Source: a virus. From it: a stretch of 35,673 bases of DNA. The stretch is from positions 36,405 to 72,077 of the IMG/VR virus record IMGVR_UViG_3300037963_002500. One strand, given 5' to 3'. The notes below the pieces were generated by a model. It did not search any database and was not told the origin of the DNA. It saw nothing but the letters and a program-made list of their open reading frames with translations. Below are positions 12,790-20,672 of the stretch, piece after piece; within the stretch, counting starts at the first letter, position 1, and every line of letters starts with the position of its first letter. A program made the translations under genes and the position numbers.

Positions 12790-13014
12790 TCAATCCTGCG
12801 ACCAAAGTTTAGAAATCTTTTCTGTTTCTTTATCTACTTTAGGTTCTTCATCAATATCAATTCTTCGCTTTAAGAAGCAAACAATATTACTGCCCGCTAC
12901 TGTTAGCATAGAACAACATTCCCAACCATCAGCACCATATGTATCTAATGATTCTATGATTATTTTTGGCCCTTTTGATACTTCAAACACTAGGTATGTA
13001 TTTTCCCATTTCAT
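12790..13014 (-). CDS. DUF4177-like small protein
   Basis: 74 residues. The order of a starting KWENTYLVFEV strand, an amphipathic helix with SLDTYGADGWECCSM, and a final strand ending FLKRR is that of the DUF4177 family, small alpha/beta proteins of unknown function with the conserved GA-x-GWE element. A charged tail follows the domain (about residues 52-74). The ATG at 13014 has GGAGAGGAAAA upstream and overlaps the end of the ATPase gene by four bases (ATGA). The function is not known for the family. Confidence 0.6.
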   Translation of the reverse strand: MKWENTYLVFEVSKGPKIIIESLDTYGADGWECCSMLTVAGSNIVCFLKRRIDIDEEPKVDKETEKISKLWSQD

Positions 13015-14513
13015 TTCTTTTCCTCTCCTTTAAATTTAATAAATACTGCTCGGCCTTGTTTTTCTATTTCAAATAGGTTTTCAATTGATTTAAAGTAGTT
13101 GTAAACACTAGCCTGACTTTTCTTGCTTTCTCTTTTCACTTCTGATAAGAAATCCTTTTTACTTATGAATCCGTCTTCATCCTTTTCCATAGCAACATAA
13201 ACAGTCTTAAATGTGCTTAACATTGACTTTTCAGCAACCGAAGTTCGACGGGTTCGGAGGCTACGTTCAAGCCATGCGACAAGGGTTATATAACACTTTT
13301 CGGCAATCTGTCCTGCTTGTTCGACGTTTCTTGCGGAAACAATGAATCTCTTGCTTTTATCTTTAATACTTCTTGCTTCAGCAATAGAGCAAAGAACTGC
13401 CATCTTTTTAAGATTCTGATTCAATCGAGTAATAAATACATCAAGTATTTCTTTTACTTCTTGTCTTGAATCTGAAATATAATTATCCATTCTATCATAT
13501 TCACGAAGTAATCTATTTCTTGCATCTTGGGTATATGTCATAGTTTTCAAAGGTTCGCAACCTACTTCAACAAATCTTTCTTTTACTAGACTATAAATCT
13601 CAAATAAACTATTTGCGAATCTTTCAGTAGGGGGTTCTTTTGTTTCGTTAATTATACCAAATTGAGCAATCAATTCTCTTCTAATTTTGTCTTGAATAAA
13701 GGAAGGAACATCATGCACATACATAACCATTCTCGGTAGAACACCTGTTGTAGCCATAATCTCTTGAAGATTTCTTGGAGGATATGTCATAGCAATAACA
13801 GTTCTTTGACAATAACAAGACATTTCTCCACCTTCTTTTAACTGCTTGTTAATTACCCATGACTCTCCAGTTGTAGAATTCATTAGGCGATTTAAATATA
13901 CAATAGAATTACTTTTATGTTGGCTTTCTTTGAATACTCCAGAATACTCAAACTCATCCCAATGTGCTAAACCGCTTCCTTCTAATGCACCTGCTACTCT
14001 TTGAAAGTAAACATCACCAATCTCACCACCATGAGTTTCTGCTTCTTCATCATTCTTAATGAGTTTCTTATCCATATAACCAATTAAAGCAGCATCAGTA
14101 TAATCAATCAAAGAAAATATGTCAAAGTTTGTGTCCATTACTTTTTCGTCTTCTATTAAAGTTGGAGGGTGTTTACCTGTGCCATTAATTTTTTTGTATA
14201 GAGATTTTGTAATTGGGCCAACAAATCTCCATAAAGTAGATTTACCTGTTCCCGATGTTTGAATCCAACATAAGTGTATTCTAATATCATCCGTTAAATC
14301 ACCATCTGGTATATGCACAAAGTCTTTACATATTGAACTCAACAAACTAAAAAAAGTTAATGTTGCTGGAGTATCATTATACTTTGAAAAACCAGTTGCC
14401 GTTTCATTCCATGCTCGCATAATAGCGGGTAATTCTGCTTGACTTACTGCTCCTAAATCTTCTGTAAATTGAGCATACCAGTCTTCTTCATTCATTTCAT
14501 ATTCATCTATCAT
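13011..14513 (-). CDS. MCM/DUF3987-like AAA+ ATPase, candidate replicative helicase
   Basis: 500 residues. Walker A is QTSGTGKST near residues 85-93; Walker B is LAHWDEFE with Asp186-Glu187. A later segment (RTVIAMTYPPRN, then TTGVLPRMVMYV) has the look of a sensor region and an arginine finger. The last 80 residues form a winged-helix-like end with TVYVAMEKDEDGFISKKDF and SQASVYNYFKSIENLFEIE, comparable with the C-terminal winged helix of MCM. The architecture fits a viral hexameric ATPase or helicase of the MCM or DUF3987 type. The neighbouring primase, XPF nuclease and polymerase support a replication role. It could instead be a DNA-repair ATPase. Its ATG overlaps the stop of the nuclease gene and follows GGTGAAACT. 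Confidence 0.62.
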   Translation of the reverse strand: MIDEYEMNEEDWYAQFTEDLGAVSQAELPAIMRAWNETATGFSKYNDTPATLTFFSLLSSICKDFVHIPDGDLTDDIRIHLCWIQTSGTGKSTLWRFVGPITKSLYKKINGTGKHPPTLIEDEKVMDTNFDIFSLIDYTDAALIGYMDKKLIKNDEEAETHGGEIGDVYFQRVAGALEGSGLAHWDEFEYSGVFKESQHKSNSIVYLNRLMNSTTGESWVINKQLKEGGEMSCYCQRTVIAMTYPPRNLQEIMATTGVLPRMVMYVHDVPSFIQDKIRRELIAQFGIINETKEPPTERFANSLFEIYSLVKERFVEVGCEPLKTMTYTQDARNRLLREYDRMDNYISDSRQEVKEILDVFITRLNQNLKKMAVLCSIAEARSIKDKSKRFIVSARNVEQAGQIAEKCYITLVAWLERSLRTRRTSVAEKSMLSTFKTVYVAMEKDEDGFISKKDFLSEVKRESKKSQASVYNYFKSIENLFEIEKQGRAVFIKFKGEEKK

Positions 14514-15205
14514 AGTTTCACCTTATCTTCTGAATTTAATACGTTAAGTATTCTGTCTGCTAATACTTTTCCAAACCCATCTAGTTTCTGTATGTCAAAA
14601 CTAGTTTGTTCTCCTATTTCCATAACAGACCCAAAGGTATCAATTAATACCTTTGCTTTTTTATAGGATACGCCTTTGATGCTAGTTAAAATATCAAGTC
14701 TTAAATCGTCGGTGCTTATTCTCTTAAATACTTGCGGTCTTATAACTTCTCTTTTTATTGGTTGCATTTTACAAATCGCTGTAATTATCAATGATGCTTC
14801 TTCTTCGCTCTTTACCCAAAAGGGTTTTATATCCGTGTCTAATACAATTCTACCTATTGCTCCTAGAAATTTATTTGATAACATAATCTTTCTAGAAGCG
14901 ATAGGTAATTTGCTTTTACTGTGTTCAATAATATTGTGTATTCCTTCTGATAAATCTCCATAGATAATTACAACATTGTTCTTGTAATGTCTATCCATAT
15001 TATCTAGTTGAGTCCATAGTCTTTTAGACATTACAGACCCAATGAAATCTACAACAGATTTTGCTTCAAAACATACATCAGAAAAGACATAATCTCCTAT
15101 CTCTAACCATTTCTTCTCCGTTTGTATATTTAGAATTCTTGCCCGTTCTTCAACGAGTTTAACTAATTTAGAACCTTCTTTTTCTCTACTATCAATTATC
15201 AACAT
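14510..15205 (-). CDS. XPF/ERCC4-type structure-specific nuclease
   Basis: 231 residues. The N-terminus LIIDSREK (Asp5), then EIGDYVFSDVCFEAKSVVDF, is the ERCC4 nuclease core, GDxxxERKxxxD; here the first Arg is Ala (EAK, Glu47-Ala48-Lys49) while the acids and Lys remain. Residues about 165-231 carry two helix-hairpin-helix motifs (SIKGVSYKKAKVLIDTFGS and KLDGFGKVLADRILNVL), which bind DNA and hold the dimer. This is the minimal archaeal XPF layout without the helicase. It cuts branched or flapped DNA. GGAGGTTTCC lies upstream of the ATG. It overlaps the primase gene by 14 bases and the downstream ATPase gene by 4, so it belongs to the replication and recombination set. Confidence 0.87.
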   Translation of the reverse strand: MLIIDSREKEGSKLVKLVEERARILNIQTEKKWLEIGDYVFSDVCFEAKSVVDFIGSVMSKRLWTQLDNMDRHYKNNVVIIYGDLSEGIHNIIEHSKSKLPIASRKIMLSNKFLGAIGRIVLDTDIKPFWVKSEEEASLIITAICKMQPIKREVIRPQVFKRISTDDLRLDILTSIKGVSYKKAKVLIDTFGSVMEIGEQTSFDIQKLDGFGKVLADRILNVLNSEDKVKL

Positions 15206-17427: not shown

Positions 17428-18315
17428 TTACCACCATTCGTCTAATTTCATTTGTAGTTTGCCTGTCCGTATCGAAGAAATATCCCATTCCATCGCCTTG
17501 TAAATTGGCTTCGCTTTGTTTATTACTTCTTCTGCGTAGTGTTTGTAATTGGGAATGTAATCTTTGAAATCCTCATATACTGTTCCCGAAACAAAATCTA
17601 CTTGTCTTTTTTCTTTTGTGAGAGGATGCGTATAGGTATCATTAACGCCTTGAACTTTCATAAACAAGTATGAATCATCAAAAGTTTTGTCTTCTTTTTC
17701 CCAAGCATACAGAACCCCTGCGATACCCGAACCGATTGTGGGTTTCTTGTATTTAGTTGTTAAGAAGAATTTGGTTTCAGTACCACATTTATCGCACCAT
17801 TTAATCTTAAGACATTCAGTTAAATGATGTTGCTTTCTGCATTCTGGACATTTAACCTCAAATCTTTCTTTACGCAATCGACTTCTCTTGATAATCTCTT
17901 TGTTTTCGATTTTACCATTGATAACATCATTGTATTTTTCATGTAAATATTTGTTGATTTCTTTCATATCTTTTTGTTCTACCCACATTCTCAATACATT
18001 TGTTTGAACTTCTTTTGCAAGTTTAGTTTCACTAACACGTTTTGCAGTAAAACCTGTCATTGTGAATTTAGGTTCATCGAGCCAAACTCCATCCTCCCAA
18101 GATACTAAACCTGCATTTCTGTTCTTTGTTGTGCCAACACCCAATGCTGAAAAATACTTTTCAAATTCAAGAACAACAGGATGTTGCTCAAGATTTAATA
18201 CATTAGGAAAGTGTTCCCGAACTGATTCTTCAATCTCTTTGATTGCTGATTCAGCCTTTTCAATAGATTCAATCTGAACATAGATTGAATCCGTGTGTCC
18301 ATAAACTACTTTCAT
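17428..18315 (-). CDS. polB: Family B DNA polymerase, C-terminal half (motif C, thumb, PIP box)
   Basis: 295 residues. It begins MKVVYGHTDS, so motif C (normally YGDTDS) lies at residues 5-10, with His7 replacing the first Asp and Asp9 kept. Residues 82-110 (FTMTGFTAKRVSETKLAKEV) match the palm-to-thumb KxxxKR region of family B. An unusual zinc-ribbon insertion has CPEC (156-159), Cys168 and CDKC (174-177). The chain ends QMKLDEWW (288-295), a PCNA-interacting motif. I place the start at 18315, where GGTGAT lies four bases ahead; the in-frame ATG at 18351 has no such site and lies inside the upstream ORF. Together with the product of 19017-20672 this gives a chain of about 846 residues, normal for the family. 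Confidence 0.87.
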   Translation of the reverse strand: MKVVYGHTDSIYVQIESIEKAESAIKEIEESVREHFPNVLNLEQHPVVLEFEKYFSALGVGTTKNRNAGLVSWEDGVWLDEPKFTMTGFTAKRVSETKLAKEVQTNVLRMWVEQKDMKEINKYLHEKYNDVINGKIENKEIIKRSRLRKERFEVKCPECRKQHHLTECLKIKWCDKCGTETKFFLTTKYKKPTIGSGIAGVLYAWEKEDKTFDDSYLFMKVQGVNDTYTHPLTKEKRQVDFVSGTVYEDFKDYIPNYKHYAEEVINKAKPIYKAMEWDISSIRTGKLQMKLDEWW

Positions 18316-18318
18316 AGT

Positions 18319-18324
18319 ATCACC
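18319..18324 (-). promoter_or_regulatory. Ribosome binding site deciding the start of PolB C-half
   Basis: GGTGAT lies three bases upstream of the ATG at 18315 and contains the TGA stop of the coiled-coil ORF. The same GGTGATA/GGAGGTGA pattern precedes many starts here (for example 22247 and 28875). It favours the start at MKVVYGHTDS over the in-frame Met at 18351. Confidence 0.6.
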
Positions 18325-18514
18325 ATGCGTTTTCAAAATAGAGTTTACCATCAGTATATTGCATCAATTCCTGCTTGATTGTTTTAATATCTTTAACTAA
18401 GTCTGCGAATGTTACATTCTCTTCGTAAAGTAGACTTAATTCATTTTCAAGCCTCTTTACTGTTTGCTTCAAATTTGCTATTTCTGCTTTTAATTCTTTA
18501 ATTTCTTTGCTCAT
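18320..18514 (-). CDS. 64-residue coiled-coil protein between polymerase halves
   Basis: It begins MSKEIKELKAEIANLKQTVK and continues with RLENELSLLYEENV, a clear heptad pattern over residues 3-33, followed by a second helix with LVKDIKTIKQELMQY. It should form a helical bundle or dimer. The ATG overlaps the stop of the 45-aa membrane peptide (ATGA), and its stop lies in the ribosome binding site of the polymerase C-half. This arrangement suggests coupled translation with the polymerase. It might help hold polymerase halves together; that is speculation. Confidence 0.6.
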   Translation of the reverse strand: MSKEIKELKAEIANLKQTVKRLENELSLLYEENVTFADLVKDIKTIKQELMQYTDGKLYFENAW

Positions 18515-18648
18515 AATATCACCGTTACGATTGTTATAATGGTTATTATATTTACGATATTTACCATCATCAATATCTTATTGCTTTTTGCTATCATAGA
18601 TAACAGTTCTTCGAGAAGTTCATTGGTTTTGTCCATCATCATTCTCAT
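18511..18648 (-). CDS. 45-residue membrane peptide between polymerase halves
   Basis: It encodes MRMMMDKTNELLEELLSMIA, then a hydrophobic span ILMMVNIVNIITIITIVTVIL at the C-terminus. One membrane segment with an amphipathic N-terminal helix is predicted. The start overlaps the end of the 54-aa ORF by 29 bases and has only a weak GGTAAGTG ahead. The stop overlaps the ATG of the coiled-coil gene. No family is recognised. Confidence 0.5.
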   Translation of the reverse strand: MRMMMDKTNELLEELLSMIAKSNKILMMVNIVNIITIITIVTVIL

Positions 18649-18784
18649 CACTTACCTTTACTATTATAGCGTTTCTTTTAATGTTATTCATCATTTGAAA
18701 TAATTCCTTTACTTCTTGTAAAGTAATATCCCATGTTTCTTCTGTATCATAAGATACTTCAACTGTTACAATTTTCTTCTTCAT
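18620..18784 (-). CDS. 54-residue unknown protein between polymerase halves
   Basis: It encodes MKKKIVTVEVSYDTEETWDI, continuing with TLQEVKELFQMMNNIKRNAI and an acidic end (DENDDGQNQ). The pattern is strand, strand, helix, strand. GGAGGCATTTAT precedes the ATG, one of the clearer ribosome binding sites here, although the gene starts 26 bases before the end of the winged-helix-like ORF. I do not recognise the fold. Confidence 0.55.
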   Translation of the reverse strand: MKKKIVTVEVSYDTEETWDITLQEVKELFQMMNNIKRNAIIVKVSDENDDGQNQ

Positions 18785-19016
18785 ATAAATGCCTCCATTT
18801 TTCTTTAATTACCCAATGTCTGTTTCTTCTTGTTCCTACTGCAAAAGCATAAGGTTTCAATAATGACGCTAAACGATTAGACTTATAAACTGTTCCGTGT
18901 TCTCTTTCGTAAAAAGAAACTATTTCTTCTAAATCAAAACTATCTGGGTTTTCGATTTGTTTTAATGAATCAATTAACTTTTGTTTTATTCTGTAATTTC
19001 CTGAACTTCTTCCCAT
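18759..19016 (-). CDS. 85-residue winged-helix-like protein inside the split polB locus
   Basis: Basic start (MGRSSGNYRIKQKLIDSLKQ), then FDLEEIVSFYEREHGTVYKS, NRLASLLKPYAFAVG and the wing-like RNRHWVIKEKWRHLY. The order of helix, helix, recognition-like helix and two strands fits a small winged helix, so DNA binding is likely. The ATG follows the TAA of the polymerase N-half immediately (TAAATG) with GGAGATGGAG as binding site. Nothing resembles an intein splice block or a LAGLIDADG, HNH or GIY-YIG nuclease. As the first gene of the cassette separating the polymerase halves, it may be autoregulatory or merely an insertion passenger. Confidence 0.55.
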   Translation of the reverse strand: MGRSSGNYRIKQKLIDSLKQIENPDSFDLEEIVSFYEREHGTVYKSNRLASLLKPYAFAVGTRRNRHWVIKEKWRHLYEEENCNS

Positions 19017-20672
19017 TTACTCCATCTCCTTTGCTTTAAATGCGGCTAAACGAATTGCTTCTCTTGCACTAGCAGTAATACTAGCGGCTAAATCTACATC
19101 AGCCCAACCAAATCCTTGAAAGGCTACAATGCCATAGAATGATGCCATTAATCTTTTTACTGCCATTTGATTGTTATACCACTTGACATATTCATTTTTA
19201 TCATCATTCTCTCTTGCTTCTTTCATAAGACGTTTGTATTCATTTCTCAATTCTTTTAATTCAAGAACTGCTCTCGGTAAAAGGCCGAGATTATCTGTCT
19301 TATAATAGAGCATTTGTTCTCTATCAGTAATACTGAAATCTCTCGGTGTTAAAATATTTACACCAAATTCTGTTGGTTCTTCTGATTTAGTTTCCCATGA
19401 AATGTTTCTTGCAATCATCATACTGGGATAAAGGCCAGCAAAATCAAAAGCAGCGACATTAAGATGCAATCCATTTGTTTCTTCACTTAATGGGTCATAA
19501 ATCATAGCACCATCATATTCTTGACGCTTCTCTACCTTTTCACCTGTTGGTGCAATCCATGTAGCATTACGCATAAAATAGATTGAACCCATATGACTTG
19601 CATAAAAACAAGCATCGAAAGGTGCAATCAATAACCTTTGTAGTGCGATAATTGCTTCACTACAATAATTTAATTCATCTAATTCTACCATTAGTTCAAC
19701 ATCAATCAAAGCATACTTCAAATATGTTTCAGTATCTTCTAACCATGCTCTACGATAAAACTCGTTGGGGTCTGGAAACTTTTCTGAAACCAGTTTCTTT
19801 CGATTAAGAACTAATTCAGATACATAATCTAAACTCAATGAAGGTAAAGTTCCTCTTTGCGAGTCATTCCATTGACGTTCAAAGGCCATGTCTAAATTGA
19901 GGGTAATGCGCCCCTTGATGGGTTGTTCGATACTTCCGAACCCGTTTTCACCGTAAAGGAATTTGTAGCCGTTCTTCGTTGATACAACACCCTTTACTTG
20001 GCTTACAGGAGATATTACTAAGGGATTCAGACCCAAAGCACACGCTCGCTCAAGTAGTTTCGGAACATCAGCAAAATTACCAAACCATGAAATAAGCATA
20101 TCTGGATTTTTTTCTTGAAGTGTTAGCATAAAATTTTCAAGCATATCTTTTTCACTTTCAAAGGTAAAGGTCGCAGTAACATCATAAATAAGATTACGTT
20201 GTGTATTTTCTGGAAACCATACCCATTGGTAATATTTTTCATCATAATTATCATACATTACCATAGTAGTAATACAATCGTGATATTGTCCACCTTGTTG
20301 CCATTCCATATCCCAATACCATTTACGCATTTTATATTCAGGTAAAGAACCTAAAGTATCAACTGCATATCTAAACGATAAAGGGACATCTGCTTCATAT
20401 GTTTGAAGAAAACTTTTCTTTGCAATTTTAATATCTTTAGCAGATTCAACATATACACGAACAAGTTTTGTTCCTTCAAGATTATACCAATCTCCTTCTT
20501 CATAAACAAAATCTCTTTCAATAAACTTTGAAGGTTTGTATGAAGTTGGTCGCTTTGAATTTACTGAGATGTAGAAATAAGGTATAAAATTTTCAACCTT
20601 TTCTATTAATTCTTCCCCATCTCTCCATGAAGTGTAAATTGTTTTTCCATTATCTAATGCACTAATTATCAT
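19017..20672 (-). CDS. polB: Family B DNA polymerase, N-terminal half (exonuclease, motifs A and B)
   Basis: 551 residues. The N-terminal domain is followed by an exonuclease domain with ExoI YWDMEW (Asp121, Glu123), ExoII WFGNFADVPKLL (Asp202) and ExoIII YALID (Tyr320, Asp324), so proofreading appears intact. Palm motif A is DFAGLYPSMM (Asp410). The finger motif B is KRLMASFYG (Lys506 to Gly514), with Ala where family B usually has Asn. The protein stops 37 residues later in the helix that normally leads straight to motif C (SAREAIRLAAFKAKEME). Motif C starts a separate gene at 18315. Little or nothing of the chain is missing, so both products should assemble into one enzyme. The gene directly follows the clamp gene. 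Confidence 0.92.
   Translation of the reverse strand: MIISALDNGKTIYTSWRDGEELIEKVENFIPYFYISVNSKRPTSYKPSKFIERDFVYEEGDWYNLEGTKLVRVYVESAKDIKIAKKSFLQTYEADVPLSFRYAVDTLGSLPEYKMRKWYWDMEWQQGGQYHDCITTMVMYDNYDEKYYQWVWFPENTQRNLIYDVTATFTFESEKDMLENFMLTLQEKNPDMLISWFGNFADVPKLLERACALGLNPLVISPVSQVKGVVSTKNGYKFLYGENGFGSIEQPIKGRITLNLDMAFERQWNDSQRGTLPSLSLDYVSELVLNRKKLVSEKFPDPNEFYRRAWLEDTETYLKYALIDVELMVELDELNYCSEAIIALQRLLIAPFDACFYASHMGSIYFMRNATWIAPTGEKVEKRQEYDGAMIYDPLSEETNGLHLNVAAFDFAGLYPSMMIARNISWETKSEEPTEFGVNILTPRDFSITDREQMLYYKTDNLGLLPRAVLELKELRNEYKRLMKEARENDDKNEYVKWYNNQMAVKRLMASFYGIVAFQGFGWADVDLAASITASAREAIRLAAFKAKEME

Follow-up and report, generated by a model that had tools for sequence, protein, structure and literature searches.

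The family B DNA polymerase (PolB) encoded in the stretch of viral DNA analysed here (35,673 nucleotides of the 81.5 kb IMG/VR record IMGVR_UViG_3300037963_002500; hereafter ‘the window’) is divided into two genes immediately before motif C, and four small genes lie between the halves. Comparison of 151 distinct IMG/VR loci having both polymerase parts shows that the split is real and conserved, and that its junction collects genes: the polymerase gene is unsplit in 34 loci, split without insert in 4, where the two genes overlap by the 4 nt ATGA, and split with an insert of 102–2392 nt in 113. Both the split and the gene-filled junction that had been described for this one genome thus recur in related viruses. 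Taken as a whole, these observations are probably best explained by a single frameshift that split the gene, a restart of translation at ATGA, a later gain of genes at the junction, and exchange of this gene slot among viruses.

The polymerase and the gene content of the window, in which genes resembling those of a clamp loader (RFC-like), TFB, an ATP-dependent ligase and GroEL were recognized by eye, fit a magrovirus, that is, a tailed marine virus of Poseidoniales archaea. The ICTV profile of the Aoguangviridae labels PolB-NTD and PolB-CTD in a figure legend as separate products beside PCNA, RFC-S, TFB and MCM, and names GroEL in its text (PMC10768690). Poseidoniales virus YSH_150918 (ON649702; Aoguangviridae, order Magrovirales), compared by description only, shares PolB-NTD/CTD, RFC, TFB and GroEL with the window. 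A PolB made of an NTD and a CTD, a replisome of its own and GroEL are traits of the Magrovirales and Aoguangviridae that the window likewise exhibits, and from this likeness in gene content it is very likely that both viruses belong to the same family or order. With these labels, the ICTV profile had already annotated the split; it contains no discussion, however, of the split or how it arose, of intermediates or of what the slot contains (PMC10768690), and we found no text discussing the magrovirus split, its intermediates or the behaviour of the slot in the literature covered, which did not extend to Philosof et al. 2017. A tblastn search with the C-half against annotated phages gave zero matches. 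Among the loci compared, the contig of L039 (IMGVR_UViG_3300021958_000021) is 184733 bp long, about twice the usual 92 kb, and possibly represents a tandem or duplicated assembly.

Two polymerase genes and the position of the cut

Both polymerase genes are read from the minus strand. The N-half (19017..20672; 551 aa, open frame) comprises the N-terminal domain, the 3'-5' exonuclease motifs WDME, WFGNFAD and YLKYALID, and the polymerase motifs A (FDFAGLYPS) and B (KRLMASFYG), and it ends, as originally counted, 37 residues past motif B when the count starts from SFYG. The C-half (17428..18315; 295 aa, open frame) provides motif C, the remaining palm and the thumb. Pfam DNA_pol_B matches both halves above cut-off with consecutive stretches of its profile (25–193 of 453 for the N-half and 221–363 for the C-half), DNA_pol_B_exo1 (the exonuclease domain) also matches the N-half, and in PHROGs both halves correspond to phrog_262 (E 1.1e-63 for the N-half). 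Exonuclease motifs I–III and motifs A, B and C are all kept across the two halves and are invariant in relatives. Motif C (YGHTDS; 18286..18303, minus strand) is unusual in that the first Asp normally found in DTD is replaced by His in magrovirus polymerases, whether split or unsplit, whereas HF2 has YGDTDS.

Scanning by pattern for genes in which the ITASA helix and motif C are joined without a cut yielded the unsplit loci, whose single frames of about 800–844 aa share 41–44% identity with the N-half and about 30% with the C-half. Where these relatives read ...AFKAQELG-YEVIYGHTDS, the window reads ...AFKAKEME, followed by a stop codon and then by MKVVYGHTDS; the distance from ITASA to the junction is 15 residues in the unsplit forms and 14–16 residues in 110 of the 117 split N-halves. 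The frame of the C-half is open up to 18351, and a start at that position was considered and rejected because the extension is not conserved. The conserved start is the Met at 18315: all 117 split loci have a start codon here, ATG in 115 of them, the matching codon encodes Tyr or Phe in 34/34 unsplit loci, and a Shine-Dalgarno-like motif precedes the start in 84/117 (72%) as compared with a background of 22%. Hence, the original prediction that the polymerase is split just before motif C with almost no residue lost, that the C-half begins at MKVVYGHTDS, and that the split is fixed is borne out throughout this virus group, the position of the cut being identical in all 117 split loci.

The predicted structure of the unsplit relative L254 (mean pLDDT 78; about 92 around the cut) matches archaeal PolB structures with an E value of 1e-39, a match that pertains to this relative and not to the window’s own halves. 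In the model, the palm helix spans residues 531–554 and the motif C strand residues 558–563; the cut falls between residues 556 and 557, which places it in the predicted turn joining the helix to the strand. The C-half further contains, in its thumb part, a four-Cys zinc-ribbon-like insert (CPEC...CDKC; 17785..17850, minus strand). A Cys-rich insert, variable in its number of Cys, is found here in every aligned split sequence and is absent from all aligned unsplit ones (unsplit loci L240–L280), and may be linked to the split.

In cassette-bearing viruses, dN/dS is about 0.13–0.22 for the N-half and 0.02–0.14 for the C-half, indicative of strong purifying selection. As judged from their sequences, the two chains are likely to be two subunits of one enzyme. 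It is conceivable instead that -1 frameshifting joins the halves in cassette-free forms while cassette-bearing forms decay or have taken on another role, and the frame of the C-half is indeed -1 relative to that of the N-half wherever the two genes abut. This reading appears very unlikely to us, however, in view of the purifying selection on both halves in cassette-bearing viruses, the retention of all catalytic motifs, the conserved start codon and Shine-Dalgarno-like motif, and a search of the 81.5 kb source record in which no further PolB match was found.

Relatives and the single origin of the split

We also considered whether an assembly chimera or a frameshift artefact had produced the arrangement in the window, and rejected this, as the same split is found in 117 distinct loci. 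Since the near relatives L003, L009, L010 and L097 share the arrangement in separate assemblies, the window is not an assembly chimera. The split arose once on the tree: the branch dividing unsplit from split polymerases has support 100/100, the clade with the abutting forms 96/91, and the cassette clade 97/93. The latter two clades are sisters, and all members of the cassette clade bear a cassette.

The bare ATGA junction is found in L243, L262, L273 and L279, and in the partial locus L274. The same clade contains L282, L284 and L350, each with a single insert gene, which encode, respectively, a 38-aa membrane peptide, a 138-aa protein and a 54-aa zinc-ribbon-like protein; these inserts are unrelated to one another and to the cassette of the window. 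L243 and L282 are nearest relatives (about 92% identical) and differ by one 38-aa open reading frame located exactly at the ATGA junction. Both retain, out of frame and just upstream of the start of the C-half, the sequence KKDGDYE, which resembles the linker GYE of the unsplit forms.

Parsimony alone does not decide whether the junction was at first bare, because equally few steps are needed if the ancestor had an insert that was lost once in the abutting-form clade. Our preference for a bare junction rests on its simplicity, on the linker remnant and on the unrelated nature of the inserts. That the split came first and the cassette later is more likely, given the bare relatives, the unrelated inserts of this early clade, and homologues of cassette genes located elsewhere (see below).

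In archaeal PolB, inteins are known to occur at motif C. Imprecise loss of an intein from the vicinity of motif C could thus have left the split behind, and erratic excision of an intein has been proposed as the cause of the split of Methanobacteriales PolB3 (PMC4104785). In the magrovirus-type loci, however, the cut precedes the strand and does not lie within motif C, the bare-junction relatives and the linker remnant fit a frameshift, and a search for intein splicing domains or motifs at the junction yielded no domain over cut-off in any of 42 records (41 related ones and that of the window). We therefore deem an intein origin highly improbable, and the suggestion that the position of the cut reflects an intein hot spot finds no support.

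With a frameshift as the preferred explanation, a small indel would most likely have shifted the frame in the turn that connects the palm helix with the strand of motif C. The ATG of the ATGA overlap would then let translation restart, so that the two chains would together retain all parts of the unsplit enzyme, and the junction would become a tolerated site for additional genes.

Cassette genes, endonucleases and exchange at the slot

The four genes between the halves of the window, predicted originally as winged-helix-like, 54-aa, membrane and coiled-coil genes, are present, under selection and recurrent in the slots of relatives; all are on the minus strand. Gene 1 (MGRSSGNYRIK...; 18759..19016; 85 aa) is winged-helix-like: its AlphaFold model (mean pLDDT 81.5) has the order helix-helix-helix-strand-strand, and comparison with the PDB yields weak winged-helix matches, the best with E 4e-3. 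It occurs in 24 of the 113 slots, with dN/dS of 0.07–0.25 among homologues. In the close relatives L008 and L013, a protein only 28% identical replaces it, while the neighbouring genes are 61–95% identical. Gene 2 (DTEETWDITLQEVKELFQMMNN; 18620..18784; 54 aa; dN/dS 0.06–0.34) is a common core gene of the slot. Gene 3 (18511..18651; 46 aa), with one transmembrane helix predicted by eye, is found in 99/113 slots, and gene 4 (18320..18514; 64 aa; dN/dS 0.03–0.11), a coiled coil with many weak matches to coiled-coil families, in 108/113. Wherever true homologues are compared, dN/dS of the four genes is about 0.03–0.36, the two values near 1 having come from setting the 85-aa protein against barely related proteins. 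These low values, along with the recurrence of the transmembrane and coiled-coil genes in most slots, argue that the cassette genes are not chance frames.

In L243, which lacks a cassette, homologues of the 54-aa and transmembrane genes are located about 6.5 kb upstream of polB, and a homologue of the 54-aa gene lies immediately upstream of the unsplit polB of L259. Since these genes have homologues elsewhere in relatives lacking the cassette, they appear to be resident genes that relocated to the slot, and under the proposed mechanism the small resident genes of the replication operon, encoding the 54-aa, transmembrane and coiled-coil proteins, would have done so once the junction was open to them. 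It is tempting to speculate that these three proteins are accessory polymerase subunits, made between the halves for co-assembly and tethering the replisome to the membrane, but we consider this rather improbable.

Within the cassette clade, the region directly behind the N-half is variable, being occupied by winged-helix proteins, zinc ribbons or endonucleases. Free-standing HNH or GIY-YIG endonucleases are encoded there in 15 of 113 slots and are of three kinds: an HNH enzyme (PF01844), a second HNH enzyme with matches to phage endonuclease VII as well as HNH families, and a GIY-YIG enzyme (PF13455/T5orf172). Neither HNH nor GIY-YIG families match anything in the window itself. Of the 2.31 Mb in 30 related records, slots make up 1.4%, and they contain all 7 matches to PF01844 and PF13455 that exceed the cut-off; these records were chosen partly for their slot endonucleases, which biases the rate and leaves the absence elsewhere unbiased. 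An HNH gene of 140–170 aa stands immediately after the intact polB in most unsplit relatives examined (L240, L245, L254, L256, L260 and L263). Part of the slot GIY-YIG endonucleases of L016, L017 and L072 resembles the window’s 500-aa helicase-like protein (13014–14522; HMM E 2.9e-5); this portion is probably a C-terminal winged helix, as if a DNA-binding domain had been borrowed from the virus’s own helicase-like protein.

The presence of three kinds of endonuclease in exactly this slot, one of them (in L085) a truncated relic, along with the HNH genes following unsplit polB in many relatives and the phage precedent of mobE in nrdA of phage Aeh1, raises the question of whether a homing endonuclease entered an intact polymerase gene, split it, and then decayed or was replaced, the cassette being the scar. 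Such a course of events is unlikely in our assessment, though less so than an intein origin: insert-free, ATGA-joined split relatives exist in the clade adjoining the cassette clade, the inserts within that clade are unrelated small genes and not endonucleases, and L243 and L282 keep the linker remnant out of frame. Of the proposal that the locus holds the remains of an invasion by a mobile element, one part thus stands, namely a link to mobile elements, as homing-endonuclease genes occupy exactly this slot in relatives, while invasion as the cause of the split is disfavoured by the insert-free forms. According to the preferred sequence of events, the split came before the endonucleases, which would have settled repeatedly behind the N-half.

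A gene-exchange tract (18017..19614, minus strand), shared with L009, L010, L097 and L011, covers the slot, extends about 600 nt into the N-half and 300 nt into the C-half, and is 92–96% identical inside as compared with 76–77% outside. The identity profile shows the window’s cassette to be about 90–100% identical to those of L009, L010 and L097, with much of the flanking gene parts at about 60–80%. Across 5244 diverged pairs, which are not independent of one another, we identified 124 exceptional tracts, 73 of which span the slot, where coverage peaks. Five weaker tracts located at this position in a single unsplit clade weaken the hot spot as proof of homing, and the conserved palm sequence may contribute to it alongside the slot. 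Either homing or exchange across homologous flanks would continue to swap the slot and its edges among viruses.

Known split polymerases and significance

Aeromonas phages 25 and 44RR, in which gene 43 is split into 43A and 43B, also encode a family B replicative polymerase as two genes. An endonuclease gene lies at the gene 43 junction of phage 25, the 43A and 43B chains co-purify and are active, and the order of split and endonuclease arrival could not be decided for these phages (PMC2988022). In 44RR, the cut in gene 43 separates motif A from motif B, whereas the magrovirus cut separates B from C, and the Aeromonas split, in a bacterial virus, is an independent event. In nrdA/mobE of phage Aeh1, a free-standing HNH endonuclease likewise resides inside a functional gene in pieces; nrdA encodes another enzyme, however, and the bare-junction relatives suggest for magroviruses that the split preceded the endonucleases.

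In an archaeal setting, a family B polymerase in two genes is likewise known from Methanobacteriales PolB3 (PolB1/PolB2 of Methanothermobacter), which is a cellular polymerase, unlike the viral PolB of magroviruses, and for which we know of no cassette like the magrovirus one. The likeness to the two-gene Methanothermobacter polymerase pointed out in the original prediction is hence a real parallel (PMC4104785).

The value of the finding lies in the intermediates and the slot-specific endonucleases. The cut point it reveals is indicated to be permissive in PolB and would be useful for split-polymerase engineering. The unsplit, bare split and gene-slot forms constitute a natural series for an essential single-chain replicase, of a kind that, to our knowledge, is rarely seen, and this series suggests how a replicase turns into two genes, and then into a landing site for genes and homing endonucleases.
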